Of a DNA stretch of 33,969 nucleotides, positions 2,615-9,015 are shown in pieces. Numbering within the stretch: the first letter of the stretch is position 1; each line of letters opens with the position of its first letter. This DNA comes from a virus, in IMG/VR virus record IMGVR_UViG_3300012001_000026, positions 1 to 33,969 of that record; one strand, 5' to 3'. The position numbers and the translations under genes are program-made. Below the pieces are notes generated by a model that did not search any database, was not told the DNA's origin, and saw only the letters and a list, made by a program, of their open reading frames with translations.

Positions 2615-2808
2615 GATGGAAACCCAGGAACAGCGGCATCTGCTTCGCCTGGCTCCCGACCTGGACCCAGGACGAGGGCACCGTGTGGCTGGAGTGGCTG
2701 CACTGGGAGCGCAACGATGGCGGTGCCAACCAGCCGTTCGCCTACTGGGCCTGGGTCTCGGAGGAGGACTACGACGCGGGCAAAAGGGCAGGTCGCCGTG
2801 GCCAGTAA
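2611..2808 (+). CDS. Small Trp-rich hypothetical protein (65 aa)
   Basis: Begins at ATG 2611 overlapping the previous TGA. The sequence is rich in Trp and acidic residues (CFAWLPTWTQDEGTVWLEW, WAWVSEEDYDAG), suggesting a compact beta-rich fold. No family recognised. It overlaps the following GTG-started gene by 11 bases, continuing the tightly coupled operon. Confidence 0.65.
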   Translation: MRWKPRNSGICFAWLPTWTQDEGTVWLEWLHWERNDGGANQPFAYWAWVSEEDYDAGKRAGRRGQ

Positions 2809-3175
2809 AGCCAAGGAGCTGAAGGCCTACGTCGAGCAGGTGCTCGTGGACGAGGGCGTGGCGAGGCCGTACGAGTTCTCCCTGGCCGCGAACTCACACC
2901 AGCAGGTCGTCTTCTATGTCAAGGGCATCCGCGTCAAGTACCAGTTCCCGTTCTCCCCGTCGGACTACAGGTCCATGCTCAACTCGCGCTCGTCCATCCG
3001 GAAGGCCATCCGCACCGCCTCGGGGCACGCTCTTTCAGGAGCACCTGCGCGGCGATCCCTTCTGGATGATGGTTGCGTGCTGCCTCGTAAACCTCACCAC
3101 CTGGGAGCAGGCCGAGCCGGCGTTTCTAAACTTGCGCCGTCGGTTCGTCCACGCTGGCGGTCTTGCGGGGGCTAG
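2798..3175 (+). CDS. Small phage protein with PSDYRSxxNxRSxIRKAIR motif; 3' end uncertain
   Basis: GTG start at 2798 with an AGGGCAGG site. The first ~75 residues (KAKELKAYVEQVLVDEGV; HQQVVFYVKGIRVKYQFP; PSDYRSMLNSRSSIRKAIR) look like a complete small alpha/beta domain: a strand pair and a basic helix, reminiscent of dsRBD/HicA-like folds. From about 3022 the frame runs on to 3175 over the glycosylase in another frame, and this tail (Arg/Pro-rich) looks non-coding. Either the genes overlap or one base too many in GGGG (3021-3024) breaks a fusion to the glycosylase. Confidence 0.55.
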   Translation: MASKAKELKAYVEQVLVDEGVARPYEFSLAANSHQQVVFYVKGIRVKYQFPFSPSDYRSMLNSRSSIRKAIRTASGHALSGAPARRSLLDDGCVLPRKPHHLGAGRAGVSKLAPSVRPRWRSCGG

Positions 3176-3479
3176 ACCCGCTAGGCTCGTCCACGCCCTC
3201 CGGCCGCTCGGCCTATCCAACATCAGGTCAAAACGTTTGGTCGCGATGGCCAAGGCTTGGTGCACGCAAGTCCCCTCCTCTGCCTCGGATGTTCTAAGTC
3301 TACCTGGCTGTGGTTCCTATGCCGCGGACAGTTGGGCGATCTTTATCGAAGGCAGACTCCTTGACCGTGACACTGTCAGTGACCACAAACTCGGATGGTT
3401 CCTCGACGCTGTCGCGAGTGGAAAGAAGGAGACTCCAATGCCTTGCCTGCCACAAGGTTCATCGAGTACAGAGAACTGA
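2916..3479 (+). CDS. MBD4-like HhH-GPD DNA glycosylase (T/U:G mismatch type)
   Basis: The recognisable fold begins at 3027 (TLFQEHLRGDPFWMMVACCL). The first ATG in this frame is 2916, but 2916-3026 reads as shadow, so the true start is unclear. Domain order follows the MBD4 catalytic domain: N-terminal helices with NLTTW, LRPLGLSNIRSKRL, the helix-hairpin-helix LPGCGSYAADSWAIF (from 3300) and the catalytic SDHKLGWFLD, whose Asp (3381) is the GPD aspartate. There are no Cys residues for an EndoIII-type FeS cluster. Enzymes of this family remove T, U or hydroxymethyl-U opposite G. Adjacent nucleotide-modification genes suggest repair of deaminated modified cytosine (inference). The 3' end overlaps the HNH gene. 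Confidence 0.75.
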   Translation: MSRASASSTSSRSPRRTTGPCSTRARPSGRPSAPPRGTLFQEHLRGDPFWMMVACCLVNLTTWEQAEPAFLNLRRRFVHAGGLAGARPARLVHALRPLGLSNIRSKRLVAMAKAWCTQVPSSASDVLSLPGCGSYAADSWAIFIEGRLLDRDTVSDHKLGWFLDAVASGKKETPMPCLPQGSSSTEN

Positions 3480-3861
3480 GGCTGGACGCAAGTGGCGACT
3501 TGAGAACCTCGAACGGGTTCGAGCCTATCGTCGTCGCCATCAGAAGGTATTCCTCTCAGACCTTTCCAATCGACTTGCTCATAACCTGCGAGTTCGTCTG
3601 GGCAAAGTCATACGAGGGCGAAAGACGAGGTCGACGTTAGACCTCTTAGGGTGTTCACTTGAACGTCTTAAAGAGCATCTTGCAGGACAGTTTCAATCGG
3701 GAATGTCCTGGGAGAATTATGGGCAGTGGGAAGTTGACCACATCAAGTCCCTAGCATCCTTTGATCTGACCGATCCCATACAGCTCGCGGAGGCGTGCAA
3801 CTTTTCCAACTTGCAACCTCTCTGGGCCTTGGACAACAACCGGAAGGGAAACATATGTTAG
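3418..3861 (+). CDS. HNH homing-type endonuclease
   Basis: 147 residues if started at GTG 3418. It has an N-terminal C-x-x-C (CLACHK), an Arg/Lys-rich helical region, LDLLGCSLERLKEHLAGQF, then GMSWENYGQWEVDHIKSL with the catalytic D-H (107-108) and NLQPLWALDNNRKGN with the metal-binding Asn residues. This is the common free-standing phage HNH layout. The best ribosome site (AAGGAGA) precedes ATG 3438, which is in the glycosylase frame, not this one, so the start is uncertain. The gene is clearly less GC-rich than its neighbours, as expected for an invading element. Its stop overlaps the next start. Confidence 0.8.
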   Translation: MERRRLQCLACHKVHRVQRTEAGRKWRLENLERVRAYRRRHQKVFLSDLSNRLAHNLRVRLGKVIRGRKTRSTLDLLGCSLERLKEHLAGQFQSGMSWENYGQWEVDHIKSLASFDLTDPIQLAEACNFSNLQPLWALDNNRKGNIC

Positions 3862-4889
3862 AGATGCAGCTAAGCAACGTCCGCGACTTCCACATGCAGG
3901 TGACGGGGCAGCCGATGGCGGACGTCCCGACGATGCTCGTCGCGGACCGACGGGACTACGCGATCAAGTTCCTGGACGAGGAGCTGACCGAGTTCAAGGA
4001 CGCCTGCACGATCGCCGACCAGGCTGACGCACTGATCGACATGATCTACGTCGCCTACGGGCGGCTCCTCGAGATGGGCATCCAGCCCGGCCCGTCCTTC
4101 CAGCTCGTGCACGAGGCCAACCTCAAGAAGGTCCGCGGCCCGACGAAGCGTGGCGGCGTGTACGACGCCGCCAAGCCCGATGGCTGGCAGCCGCCGGACT
4201 GGGAGGACCACCTCAGTCTCGACAAGGGCCAGTACATTGGCCTCACACGTGAGGTCGATCAGTTTGGTGGACCGCGACCGCGGACAAACCCCTGGGACAA
4301 TAGCTGTCAGCCGTTCTTCAAGAGCACGGTCGAGCGCGAGGATTACGAGCGCGAGCACCGCAAGCCTAAGATCCTCCTGCTCGGCTACGGACGGCACGGC
4401 AAGGACACCGTCGCCGAGATCCTCGAGAGCAAGTATGGACTCACCTTCACCTCGAGCAGCATGGTCTGCGCGGAGAAGGTAATGATGCCGGTCTTCAATA
4501 GGCACGACGGTGTCCGCCAGACCGTCATATATGCCGACGTCAAGGAGTGCTTCAACGACCGACACAACCACCGCGTCACGTGGTTCAAGGCCATCGAGGA
4601 GTTCAACACCCCCGATAAGTCGGCGCTCGGTCGGATCATCTTTGAGGCCAACGACATATACGTCGGCCTCCGCAGCGCCCGCGAGTTCCACGCCGTGAGG
4701 AACGCCGGGCTGTACGACGTCTGCATCTGGGTCGACCGCTCGCAGCACGTGCCGCCCGAGGACAGGTCGTCCTGCACCGTCGAGCCGTGGATGGCCGACT
4801 ACGTGATCGACAACAACGGCACGCTCGACGAGCTGGCCTTCAACGTGGACGCCCTCATGTGGGGCCTGGAGAAAAAGCGCAATGCCTAA
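3855..4889 (+). CDS. MazG-like NTP pyrophosphatase fused to deoxynucleoside monophosphate kinase
   Basis: 344 residues, starting at ATG 3855 after GGAAGGGA and overlapping the HNH stop. Residues ~10-110 are an all-alpha NTP pyrophosphohydrolase: FLDEELTEFKDA (E42, E43, E46) and DALIDMIYVAYG (D58, D62) give the E-x-x-E / D-x-x-D metal site. Residues ~170-340 are a P-loop kinase with Walker A GYGRHGKDT (177-185), GLTFTSSS and the C-terminal DYVIDNNGTLDEL seen in phage dNMP kinases. The T4 analogues are gp56 (dCTPase/dUTPase) and gp1. The fusion would remove an unwanted dNTP and phosphorylate the modified dNMP made by the next gene. Substrate specificity is inferred. Confidence 0.8.
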   Translation: MLEMQLSNVRDFHMQVTGQPMADVPTMLVADRRDYAIKFLDEELTEFKDACTIADQADALIDMIYVAYGRLLEMGIQPGPSFQLVHEANLKKVRGPTKRGGVYDAAKPDGWQPPDWEDHLSLDKGQYIGLTREVDQFGGPRPRTNPWDNSCQPFFKSTVEREDYEREHRKPKILLLGYGRHGKDTVAEILESKYGLTFTSSSMVCAEKVMMPVFNRHDGVRQTVIYADVKECFNDRHNHRVTWFKAIEEFNTPDKSALGRIIFEANDIYVGLRSAREFHAVRNAGLYDVCIWVDRSQHVPPEDRSSCTVEPWMADYVIDNNGTLDELAFNVDALMWGLEKKRNA

Positions 4890-5745
4890 CGATCGGACCC
4901 TCTCGCACGTAGCCGGGACCTTCCCCTACATCTACGACGAGCTGCTCGAGGAGCTCGTCAACTCGCCGTTCACGGAGGTCAACCAGCGGACGGGCGCCGA
5001 GATCAAGATGCTCCTGGGCGGCTGCAGCTTCAAGCTGGACCTGACGGACCAGCGTGTGCCGGTCACCGGGTCCCGCAAGCTGTTCCCGCACGTGGCCGCG
5101 GCCGAGGTCGCCTGGTTCCTCCAGGGCAACCAGGACGTGACCTGGCTCAACTATCACGCCAAGATATGGGACAAGTTCAAGGAGCCGGGGACGGAGATCG
5201 TCAAGGCCGCCTACGGGTACCGCTGGAGGTTCCACTTCGACCGCGACCAGATCAAGCTGGCGATCGCGGCGCTCCAGATGAACCCGACCGACCGCCGCGT
5301 GTGGGTGCAGGCCTGGGACCCGAGCGAGGACGGCCTGGGCGCCCCGAACCAGAGGAACGTGCCGTGCCCCATCGGCTTCACCCTCTCGATCGTCGGCGGC
5401 CTGCTGCACAGCTCGCTGTTCATCCGCTCGTCGGACGTCTTCGTGGGCCTGCCGTACGACGTGATGGGCCACGCCATCCTGATGGCCAACGTCGCGGCGT
5501 CGATCGGCCTCATGGGCCTCGGCACCATGCAGGTGACGCTGGCCCACCCGCACCTCTATGCACAGCACTACGACATGGCCGCGCAGTGCCTCGTGAACGT
5601 CCACCACCCGAAGGGCCCCGAGCTCTATGCGTGGCGGGTCGACGACGTACTGGCGGACCCCGACGGCTTCGTCTTCACCTACCGCAAGTCGGCGCAGGCG
5701 GTTGAGTGGTCCGATTATGCGCCCAAGCCGGAGTTGGTACTTTGA
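4882..5745 (+). CDS. Thymidylate synthase-fold enzyme, predicted dCMP hydroxymethylase
   Basis: 287 residues, the length of the ThyA family. Conserved sites (E. coli TS numbers in brackets): R36 (R21), E75 in AEVAWFLQG (E58), Y111 (Y94), catalytic C162 in NVPCPIGF (C146), R182 and D185 in IRSSDVF (R166, D169), H224 and Y226 in HPHLYAQHY (H207, Y209). The base-reading Asn177 is replaced by Asp193 in GLPYDVMGHA; Asp at this position is the hallmark of dCMP hydroxymethylases such as T4 gp42. Hence it probably acts on dCMP with methylene-THF. Ordinary dUMP methylation cannot be excluded. It overlaps the kinase gene by 8 bases. Confidence 0.8.
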   Translation: MPNDRTLSHVAGTFPYIYDELLEELVNSPFTEVNQRTGAEIKMLLGGCSFKLDLTDQRVPVTGSRKLFPHVAAAEVAWFLQGNQDVTWLNYHAKIWDKFKEPGTEIVKAAYGYRWRFHFDRDQIKLAIAALQMNPTDRRVWVQAWDPSEDGLGAPNQRNVPCPIGFTLSIVGGLLHSSLFIRSSDVFVGLPYDVMGHAILMANVAASIGLMGLGTMQVTLAHPHLYAQHYDMAAQCLVNVHHPKGPELYAWRVDDVLADPDGFVFTYRKSAQAVEWSDYAPKPELVL

Positions 5746-6194
5746 AGATTGTGAGCAACACGAAGAAGGACGAGAACAGCGCCTCCGGGGAGGCGATCGA
5801 CCCCGGCACACCGCTGTCGCCGGCGGAGCAGCAGCGTATGCAGCTCGAGCAGTCACACCCATTCGTGAAGGGCATGGCCAACGCCGGCGCCATCCTGGGC
5901 CGGGACATAGGCGTCCTGGCGCTGCGCGCCGTCGAGGGTGTCCGCGACGGAGGCCTCAACGCCGTGCTGTACTGGACCGGCGACCGAGTCCCCGAGGCCA
6001 TCAGGGCGCAGATGACGGACCAGATGCGCGACAACCTCCACGGCGCGATGATCGTGCCGCAGGGCGCGCGGATGCCGCTGTTCACGTTCCACGAGACCCA
6101 GGTCCGCACCGCCTCCCGCGTCCTCGCCGATGGGTCGCAGCTCATCATCTTCGAGGAGGTCAAGGACGCGCAGCAGGACGCGGCCTCTGCCTAG
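5742..6194 (+). CDS. Hypothetical protein (~150 aa) in the nucleotide operon
   Basis: Probable start TTG 5742 (TTGA overlap with the previous stop, GGAG upstream) or GTG 5751. The product has a disordered charged N-terminus (NTKKDENSASGEAIDPG), a Gly/Ala region (GMANAGAILGRDIGVLALRAVEG) and a C-terminal part (MIVPQGARMPLFTF... LADGSQLIIFEEVKD) that looks like an alpha/beta domain. No recognised family and no clear membrane span. Its place between the TS-fold gene and DUF4326/DHFR hints at a nucleotide-related role, which is only contextual. Confidence 0.65.
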   Translation: MKIVSNTKKDENSASGEAIDPGTPLSPAEQQRMQLEQSHPFVKGMANAGAILGRDIGVLALRAVEGVRDGGLNAVLYWTGDRVPEAIRAQMTDQMRDNLHGAMIVPQGARMPLFTFHETQVRTASRVLADGSQLIIFEEVKDAQQDAASA

Positions 6195-6435
6195 GGTCCT
6201 CAACAAGCACCGCGACACCATCCCCCCGGGCGCAGTCTACTGCGGCCGGGGTTCTCCGTACGGCAACCCGTTCCCGATCGCCGGGACACTGACGCGCAAG
6301 AAGGCGATAGAGAAGTTCGTGCGCGAGGTCCTCCCCGGCCTCGACGTGTCGGCCCTCCGCGGGAAGGACCTCGTCTGCTTCTGCAAGCCGCGGGCGTGCC
6401 ACTGCGATCACATACTGGAAAAGGCGAACAGATGA
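6187..6435 (+). CDS. DUF4326 family protein
   Basis: The family signature is clear: PRVLNKHRDTIPPGAVYCG, RGSPYGNPFPI, LRGKDLVCFCKPRACHCD. Family members normally begin MPRVxNKH, which here corresponds to CTG 6187 (CTG CCT AGG), overlapping the previous stop and 7-9 bases after AGGA. The nearest in-frame ATG (6130) would add 19 unlikely residues. The C-x-C-x-x-x-x-C-H-C-D cluster suggests metal binding. Function is unknown; the family is common in phages. The stop overlaps the DHFR start (ATGA). Confidence 0.75.
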   Translation: MPRVLNKHRDTIPPGAVYCGRGSPYGNPFPIAGTLTRKKAIEKFVREVLPGLDVSALRGKDLVCFCKPRACHCDHILEKANR

Positions 6436-6932
6436 AGCTCATCATGGCGGTTTCGAAGGAAGGCTACGTGACCAGGTGCCTCGACGACGACATGAGTTGG
6501 ACCGGGCCGAGCGACAAGACGGCGTTCCGCCTGCTGACCTGCGTCGGCGGCCACATCGCGTGCGGGTCCCGGACCTGGGACAGGATGCCGCACCAGCTCC
6601 CCGGCCGCCACCTGGTCAAGCTGAGCACGTCCGCGCCGATCGGCCACGAGACCCCGACGCTCGACTGGTTCGAGAAGCACCACCCCGACGGCTGGCTGAT
6701 CGGGGGCCAGACGATCGCGCTCGAGGCGCTCAAGAAGGACCTGGTGGACCAGGCATTCATCGTGCACTCGTCGCGGCTCTGCTTCCCGACGGCGAGCGGC
6801 GACAGGTATACACTGGGTAGCCAGTACCACCTGCACGAGGACTACCAGCGGCACAACCCGCGGTGGCGGAAGTCGACGACCCTGGCCCTCGGCGACGTCG
6901 AGGTCGCCGTCTGGAACAGGCAGCGGCTGTGA
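6432..6932 (+). CDS. Dihydrofolate reductase-like protein
   Basis: 166 residues with the DHFR order of motifs: MKLIMAVSKEGYV at the N-terminus, MSWTGPSDKTAFRLLT with the catalytic acid (D28, equivalent to E. coli D27), CGSRTWDRMP and LPGR, then GWLIGGQTIALEAL, the GG NADPH loop. It reduces dihydrofolate to tetrahydrofolate, the carrier used by the TS-fold enzyme encoded ~0.7 kb upstream. A TS makes DHF, whereas a hydroxymethylase does not, so the pair does not decide the TS question; T4 carries both types plus a DHFR. It is coupled by ATGA at its start and GTGA at its end. Confidence 0.8.
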   Translation: MKLIMAVSKEGYVTRCLDDDMSWTGPSDKTAFRLLTCVGGHIACGSRTWDRMPHQLPGRHLVKLSTSAPIGHETPTLDWFEKHHPDGWLIGGQTIALEALKKDLVDQAFIVHSSRLCFPTASGDRYTLGSQYHLHEDYQRHNPRWRKSTTLALGDVEVAVWNRQRL

Positions 6933-7381
6933 GGGAGTCCTCCCTCTGGAAGTGGCTTCAGCAGGCCGAGGCCAAGCTCTACTTCACCCCGGACCTCCAC
7001 TGGCGGCGGATCGAGAACCTGGTCGCCGAGGGCGACCCGGACGTCGAGGGCTGCTACCGGGGCGTCTGCTTCAACATCGAGCTCAAGGTCGCGGACAGGC
7101 CCGCCAGGGAGACCACGCGCGTCCTCGGTCCCGCCGACATAAGGCCAAAGCAGATACCCTGGGCCAAGGCCAGGTGGACCGCGGGTGGATCGAGCTACTT
7201 CCTGATCCAGGTTGGATCCTCCGCCAAGGCGCACCGGTACCTAATCACCGGAGGACTCGCCGACAAGATCATCGGCGCTACGGAGCAGGAGCTCTACGAC
7301 AGGAGCATCATCGACCGGCACGCCGACCAGGTCGAGGTCCTCACGAACGCGTGCGCCTATCGTTCTCCTAGCCTTCCCTGA
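6929..7381 (+). CDS. PD-(D/E)XK nuclease-like protein
   Basis: 150 residues from GTG 6929, which overlaps the DHFR stop (GTGA). Core pattern: E29 in RRIENL, GDPDVEG (D36/D38), then CFNIELKVA with the E51-L-K53 catalytic pair, and IRPKQIPWAKARW followed by SSYFLIQVG. This order matches the PD-(D/E)XK fold of phage Holliday-junction-resolvase/VRR-NUC-like nucleases. It may process DNA junctions or ends in replication or recombination. The exact substrate is unknown. It is the last gene before a 61-base gap. Confidence 0.75.
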   Translation: MRESSLWKWLQQAEAKLYFTPDLHWRRIENLVAEGDPDVEGCYRGVCFNIELKVADRPARETTRVLGPADIRPKQIPWAKARWTAGGSSYFLIQVGSSAKAHRYLITGGLADKIIGATEQELYDRSIIDRHADQVEVLTNACAYRSPSLP

Positions 7382-8440: not shown

Positions 8441-9015
8441 AGAAGCCAAAGACGTACCGAGTGCAGTCCTTCATCGGCCTAGAGCTCAAGGGCCTCTCGG
8501 AGGGGGCCATGCGCCGGGTGGAGCTGTCCCCCGAGATCGTTGCCGCCCTCGCGGAGACGTACCGCCTCGAGCTCGCCAAGCTCGACATATTTGCCTACCC
8601 CCGGGTCATGAGGGCGGAGGAGGTCAGGGCGGCCTACCTGGACGGACCCATCAACCACATCCCCATGAACGAGCAGGTGCTCGTCACCGGCGCTCGACCC
8701 TGGGAGCCAGGTCGCCCGCTGCGCCAGTTCGTGCGGGGCTTCCTCCGCGACCACCTGGGCACGAGCAAGATCGTCGCCCACCTGCTGGCGGACCTGTTCA
8801 TGAAGCGCTGGGATACGGCGAAGACCGACGGTACGGCCAGGCGGTACGCCGAGGAGATGGACGACAAGCACACGCTGGCGGCCACGTTCGACCGCGAGGC
8901 GGCGGAGGCGACCGACAAGATGCTGGGGATGACCGACCGGGCTAAGGCCGACATGGTGTTCCCGGACCGTCCGTTCTTCGACCCGAGCAGCCGGCTGTTC
9001 AGCGCAGGACGCTGA
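8437..9015 (+). CDS. Hypothetical protein (192 aa), last gene of the plus operon
   Basis: Starts at ATG 8437 overlapping the HIRAN stop, with AAGGAGA upstream. The product is alpha-helical and charged (LSPEIVAALAETYRLELAKL; ARRYAEEMDDKHTLAATFD; EATDKMLGMTDRAKADM) with a PxRPFFDPSSRLFSAG tail. No family recognised and no membrane segment. It is followed directly by a strong terminator, so it ends the early operon. Confidence 0.75.
   Translation: MKKPKTYRVQSFIGLELKGLSEGAMRRVELSPEIVAALAETYRLELAKLDIFAYPRVMRAEEVRAAYLDGPINHIPMNEQVLVTGARPWEPGRPLRQFVRGFLRDHLGTSKIVAHLLADLFMKRWDTAKTDGTARRYAEEMDDKHTLAATFDREAAEATDKMLGMTDRAKADMVFPDRPFFDPSSRLFSAGR

Follow-up and report, generated by a model that had tools for sequence, protein, structure and literature searches.

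A predicted MBD4-type DNA glycosylase in a putative cytosine-modification operon of a tailed phage

Gene content and order of the locus

The window, meaning the whole stretch of DNA analysed here, is a 33,969-base IMG/VR record of a tailed phage in which a tape measure protein, a minor tail protein, a GTA-like Rcc01698 tail domain and a lysozyme are present. On its plus strand, a small ORF (2798-3175, with a proposed GTG start) extends out of frame into a gene whose conserved part (3027-3479) encodes a predicted MBD4-type HhH-GPD DNA glycosylase. The frame of this gene is open from 2823, contains ATG only at 2916 and ends in a stop codon at 3477-3479, and within it lie the codon of Gln4 (3036-3038), the helix-hairpin-helix (HhH) LPGCGSYAADSW (3300-3335) and the catalytic loop SDHKL (3378-3392), which includes the codon of Asp119 (3381-3383). 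An inserted HNH (endonuclease VII-like) gene (3361-3861) overlaps the 3' end of the glycosylase gene; its start is uncertain, a TTG at 3361 being proposed in an ORF that is open from a GTG at 3310. Further downstream, all on the plus strand, are a MazG-like pyrophosphohydrolase fused to a deoxynucleoside monophosphate kinase-like domain (3855-4889), an Asp-type thymidylate-synthase-fold (TS-fold) enzyme predicted to be a dCMP methylase (4882-5745; Cys162 codon at 5365-5367 and Asp193 codon at 5458-5460), a DUF4326 protein (6130-6435), a dihydrofolate reductase (DHFR; 6432-6932) and a small phrog_2165 protein (6863-7381). The last of these carries the PHROGs label 'DNA helicase', is annotated as 'putative nuclease' in one relative and lies 3' of DHFR in nearly all relatives.

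The gene order shared with the relatives runs from the small ORF through the glycosylase, MazG (with or without the kinase domain), the TS-fold enzyme, usually a dCMP deaminase, and DHFR to the phrog_2165 protein, and this order is common to Donnerlittchen, AXL1, YB23 and most of the IMG/VR relatives. The stretch holding DUF4326 is the position of the dCMP deaminase in most relatives; no dCMP deaminase was found in the window record or in its nearest relative (L016), where DUF4326 is also encoded in that stretch (8596-8880). Besides, the fusion of MazG and kinase domains would fit a one-protein switch from the removal of dCTP to the phosphorylation of the modified dCMP.

The glycosylase, its active site and the HNH insertion

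The Pfam HhH-GPD match of the window glycosylase was slightly above the cut-off. Searching the PDB by phmmer with the window sequence alone returned MBD4 with an E-value of 3e-7, endonuclease III with 0.011 and MIG with 0.16, while a profile of six phage sequences searched against solved structures gave 3.5e-19 for MBD4, 1e-7 for endonuclease III and 1.5e-6 for MIG. An AlphaFold model of the glycosylase was built from 15 homologues (mean pLDDT 89), and its best Foldseek matches were all MBD4 (TM 0.75-0.77, normalised to the model). In the VIA fold comparison about 130 residues were aligned with MBD4 (Z 18-19), against Z values of about 15 for MIG and endonuclease III. Among the fold matches listed, MBD4 was followed by MIG, endonuclease III and MutY, and no aGPT-type structure occurred among them. 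By profile and modelled fold, the segment at 3027-3479 is predicted to be a HhH-GPD glycosylase with MBD4 as its closest solved relative. The earlier note had recognised an MBD4-like class from the HhH and the SDHKL motif, and this assignment was borne out by phmmer, by the phage profile, by the fold matches of the AlphaFold model and by the invariance of Asp119.

In the alignment of 15 phage homologues, Gln4, Tyr98, Asp101-Ser102, Asp119 and Leu122 are invariant, and the MBD4 counterpart of Asp119, Asp560, is the candidate nucleophile of that enzyme (PMC5406665). The catalytic Lys is absent from the HhH and Tyr98 is found there instead, which is the pattern of a monofunctional glycosylase. 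Tyr98 occupies the site of the Lys in bifunctional enzymes, endonuclease III included, and Gln4 was aligned with Gln449 of MBD4 (model residue 1 corresponding to MBD4 residue 446). Like the catalytic domain of MBD4, the phage enzyme is a HhH-GPD protein that spans about 130-140 residues and lacks an FeS cluster, with the catalytic Asp in DHKL, a Tyr in the HhH and a Gln in LxQE. The Cys loop that holds the FeS cluster in endonuclease III and MIG is missing, since the translation ends about 30 residues past the catalytic Asp and has one Cys there. Unlike MBD4, with which it shares 26-28% identity, the phage enzyme is located in a phage nucleotide-modification operon, has mostly Leu at the position of the intercalating Arg468 (15-sequence alignment) and is without the methyl-CpG-binding domain, for which the window protein has no room and gave no Pfam match; membership of the MBD4 class is claimed for the catalytic-domain family only.

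A direct homologue at the same operon position is the ENDO3c protein of phages AXL1 (gp65) and, reportedly, Xp12, with about 49% identity to the window protein, DGKL for DHKL and a 28-residue N-terminal extension. In AXL1, whose gene order is that of the relatives considered here, gp65 has been described as no more than an endonuclease III-like domain of uncertain active site, otherwise reported only in Xp12 (PMC9206674).

Relatives of the glycosylase start about 10-12 or 28-30 codons ahead of the LFQ motif, and no ATG, GTG or TTG was found at either distance in the window or in L016; the window frame offers a single usual start, the ATG at 2916, which overlaps the upstream ORF. The glycosylase may be translated from this ATG, from an unusual start or through a frameshift from the upstream ORF, the frameshift being unsupported. 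The upstream ORF itself passes through the glycosylase N-terminus in the -1 frame in both phages (2916-3030 in the window and 5800-6001 in L016). Comparison of the two glycosylase genes gave a dN of 0.19 and a dS of 1.10 (dN/dS about 0.17), values by which the frame is judged to be under purifying selection.

The DNA of L016 closely matches the window up to about 3357, where the similarity ends, and the low-GC HNH gene comes next and extends to 3861, mazG starting at 3855; the glycosylase gene therefore overlaps inserted DNA at its 3' end. The interval 3027-3479, as first proposed for the gene, does hold a real protein, but no start codon lies at 3027, and some 20 residues at the C-terminal end run into the HNH gene. 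The catalytic loop is nevertheless judged genuine, because VSDHKLGWFL scored higher than every one of 20,000 shuffles made from the codons of the overlapping HNH frame, because scores equal to it among 773,690 test windows came only from true homologues, and because a second locus (L059) combines the loop SVSDGKLLWFL with an HNH gene at the same place (about 3560-4040). The approach to the loop is two residues longer in the window. A chance read-through of the HNH gene as the origin of SDHKL was ruled out by the codon shuffling and by L059. An HNH (endonuclease VII-like) gene thus overlaps and adjoins the catalytic loop in two distinct phages, and its presence at a conserved site of the glycosylase is likely to reflect a homing-type insertion; a pattern scan of IMG/VR found no close relatives of the HNH protein.

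The neighbouring TS-fold enzyme and the distribution of the glycosylase

An Asp at E. coli TS position 177 was found in all TS-fold neighbours aligned, and Asp at that position marks the dCMP-specific form (PMC8670742). The T4 dCMP hydroxymethylase has no C-terminal tail, relies on Asp145 and liberates THF; methylation of the TS type, by contrast, yields DHF and requires DHFR (PMC6400193). Like T4 gp42, the window enzyme has the TS fold, a Cys nucleophile and the Asp at position 177; unlike gp42, the window-type enzymes keep a conserved C-terminal tail ending in PKPELVL and have Asn (position 143) in place of Asp145 and Phe (83) in place of Val85. In addition, a DHFR gene lies near the TS-fold gene in most cases. 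In Xp12, a phage of the genus of AXL1, 5mC replaces all cytosines in the DNA. A dCMP methylase has been described for Xp12 (PMC5175136), and AXL1 DNA is resistant to most restriction enzymes tested (PMC9206674). Two common families of carbamoyl- and glycosyltransferases gave no match in 18 records, and neither did the generic methyltransferase family PF13649 in six records.

Altogether, the adjacent Asp-type enzyme looks like a dCMP methylase and not a hydroxymethylase. The methylase-like features of the TS-fold protein, the nearby DHFR and the 5mC of Xp12 favour 5mC over hmC, with T:G as the probable lesion, and we infer that the DNA of the window phage contains 5mC. In two distantly related phages (L031 and L032), the residue three places ahead of the catalytic Cys of the TS protein is the T4-type Asp, so that these phages may make hmC, and the idea of an hmU:G lesion may hold for them.

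Among 50,697 phage records, relatives of the glycosylase occurred in 8 and, as a yardstick, TS relatives of any type in 1,797, and a scan limited to two peptide patterns found no glycosylase relatives in bacterial genomes, in agreement with the earlier description of the class as rare in phages. Scanning IMG/VR for the glycosylase returned 17 contigs, 16 of which carry a TS-fold gene that is of the Asp type wherever it could be read (the copy of L017 is cut off); the sole contig without it is a 25.5-kb fragment. Since most of these contigs are interrelated, more independent lineages weigh more, and in each of L031, L032 and cyanophage S-TIM54 a distant relative of the glycosylase accompanies an Asp-type TS as well as a match to the C5-methyltransferase family PF00145. 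In L031 (5974-8000), a C5-methyltransferase-like gene with PC and QxRxR motifs lies directly 3' of the glycosylase gene. Cyanophage S-TIM54 (L007, 4277-4663; L042) encodes ThyX in addition to an Asp-type TS and a C5-methyltransferase-like gene, and its small MBD4-like glycosylase bears the annotation 'hypothetical'.

In the reverse direction, a glycosylase gene was found within about 5 kb at 14 of 52 Asp-type TS loci and was lacking at the other 38. Phages DLP4 and DoCa10 are cleanly without it, with no recognisable glycosylase remnant at their junctions, and the TS tree needs at least seven gains or losses of the gene. As most Asp-type TS loci do without the glycosylase, it is not required, and its presence at this fraction of loci, its clean absence from DLP4 and DoCa10 and the repeated changes indicate an accessory gene. 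The expected co-occurrence with Asp-type TS genes therefore holds when starting from the glycosylase but fails when starting from the TS gene. Besides, higher GC3 would be expected where the gene is present, because the enzyme would counter C-to-T loss; mean GC3 of the TS genes (loci L043-L094) was 0.875 with the glycosylase vs. 0.60 without it (Mann-Whitney p 0.0004, a comparison confounded by kinship), and over independent pairs on the TS tree the difference was not significant.

Proposed role in the repair of modified phage DNA

The explanation that we consider best draws on homology, on the conservation of residues in the active site, on the predicted fold, on purifying selection and on both synteny and co-occurrence: the protein is probably a monofunctional MBD4-type T:G (and U:G) glycosylase, whose gene is an accessory member of an operon by which the phage puts 5mC in place of cytosine. 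Its substrate and its part in repair are what we infer, and the pathway would run as follows. The MazG/kinase fusion, the dCMP methylase and DHFR would supply 5-methyl-dCTP, and 5mC in the phage DNA would deaminate to leave T opposite G; the glycosylase would flip out and remove this T via the catalytic Asp119, in a base pocket lined by Gln4 and Tyr98, and an AP endonuclease (presumably that of the host), a polymerase and a ligase would then restore the pair.

The earlier note had placed the glycosylase next to a cytosine-modification module, which profile, fold, synteny and co-occurrence with Asp-type TS uphold, but it had favoured hmC, made by a dCMP hydroxymethylase, with hmU opposite G as the base removed. 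This version draws on the Asp177 common to methylases and hydroxymethylases, on the action of MBD4 on hmU as well and on the T4-type Asp in the TS proteins of L031 and L032, and it sits poorly with the retained tail, the Asn and Phe replacements and the nearby DHFR of the window-type enzymes and with the 5mC of a genus-mate of AXL1, so that we hold it to be quite improbable. It is also unlikely, if less so, that the window copy is a non-functional remnant of an ancestral glycosylase inactivated by the HNH insertion and by loss of the start codon. The absence of a usual start codon near the conserved N-terminus, the shortness of that N-terminus and the replacement of the 3' end by inserted DNA would agree with inactivation; however, L016 has the same start problem and short N-terminus, the frame is under apparent purifying selection, the catalytic loop survives and L059 tolerates a similar insertion. 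Moreover, such inactivation would concern the window copy and not the glycosylase family.

Two further alternatives raised in the earlier note found no support. An attack on host or competitor DNA, instead of repair of phage DNA, would suit an accessory phage gene with repeated gain or loss, but the gene is coupled consistently to cytosine-modification genes and not to host takeover genes, and the mismatches on which an MBD4-type enzyme acts are few in host DNA; we consider this reading very unlikely. Even less probable is that the protein is not a glycosylase at all but an HhH-fold enzyme of thymidine hypermodification of the aGPT type, which presumably belongs to the same general fold class, as the best fold matches listed for the window protein are all MBD4, followed by MIG, endonuclease III and MutY, and the adjoining TS-fold enzyme is of the dCMP type.

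A T:G glycosylase working on 5mC-containing phage DNA would have parallels elsewhere, since T:G glycosylases are paired with 5mC in vertebrates (MBD4, TDG) and in some methyltransferase settings. The T:G repair genes of Mig.Mth and Vsr are linked to cytosine methyltransferases and follow the same logic as that proposed here, T:G repair being tied to cytosine methylation, and the fold of MIG is shared. However, MIG contains an FeS cluster, Vsr belongs to the endonucleases, and both guard site-specific methylation and not a fully modified genome. A phage genome wholly in 5mC is a far denser target for deamination. The literature searched, which included few subscription journals, nowhere assigns the phage glycosylase family to MBD4 or to 5mC repair and is silent on how fully 5mC phages deal with deamination. 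A paper on the pathway has been announced by the group that sequenced Xp12, and this, together with the limited journal coverage, makes priority uncertain.

Our results suggest that the annotation 'thymidylate synthase' is misleading in these operons. More broadly, and more tentatively than for the window enzyme itself, phages with C5-modified cytosine might recruit an MBD4-type glycosylase that fits the deamination product of their own base (T:G for 5mC, possibly hmU:G for hmC), in a virus-encoded, modification-matched form of base-excision repair whose gene would have been gained and lost on many occasions and would influence how fast such genomes mutate and how GC-rich they are; we rate this generalisation at slightly below even chances. 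The proposal is directly testable with the Xp12 protein or AXL1 gp65, and it would give a poorly annotated phage family an assayable activity and MBD4 a set of compact phage relatives.
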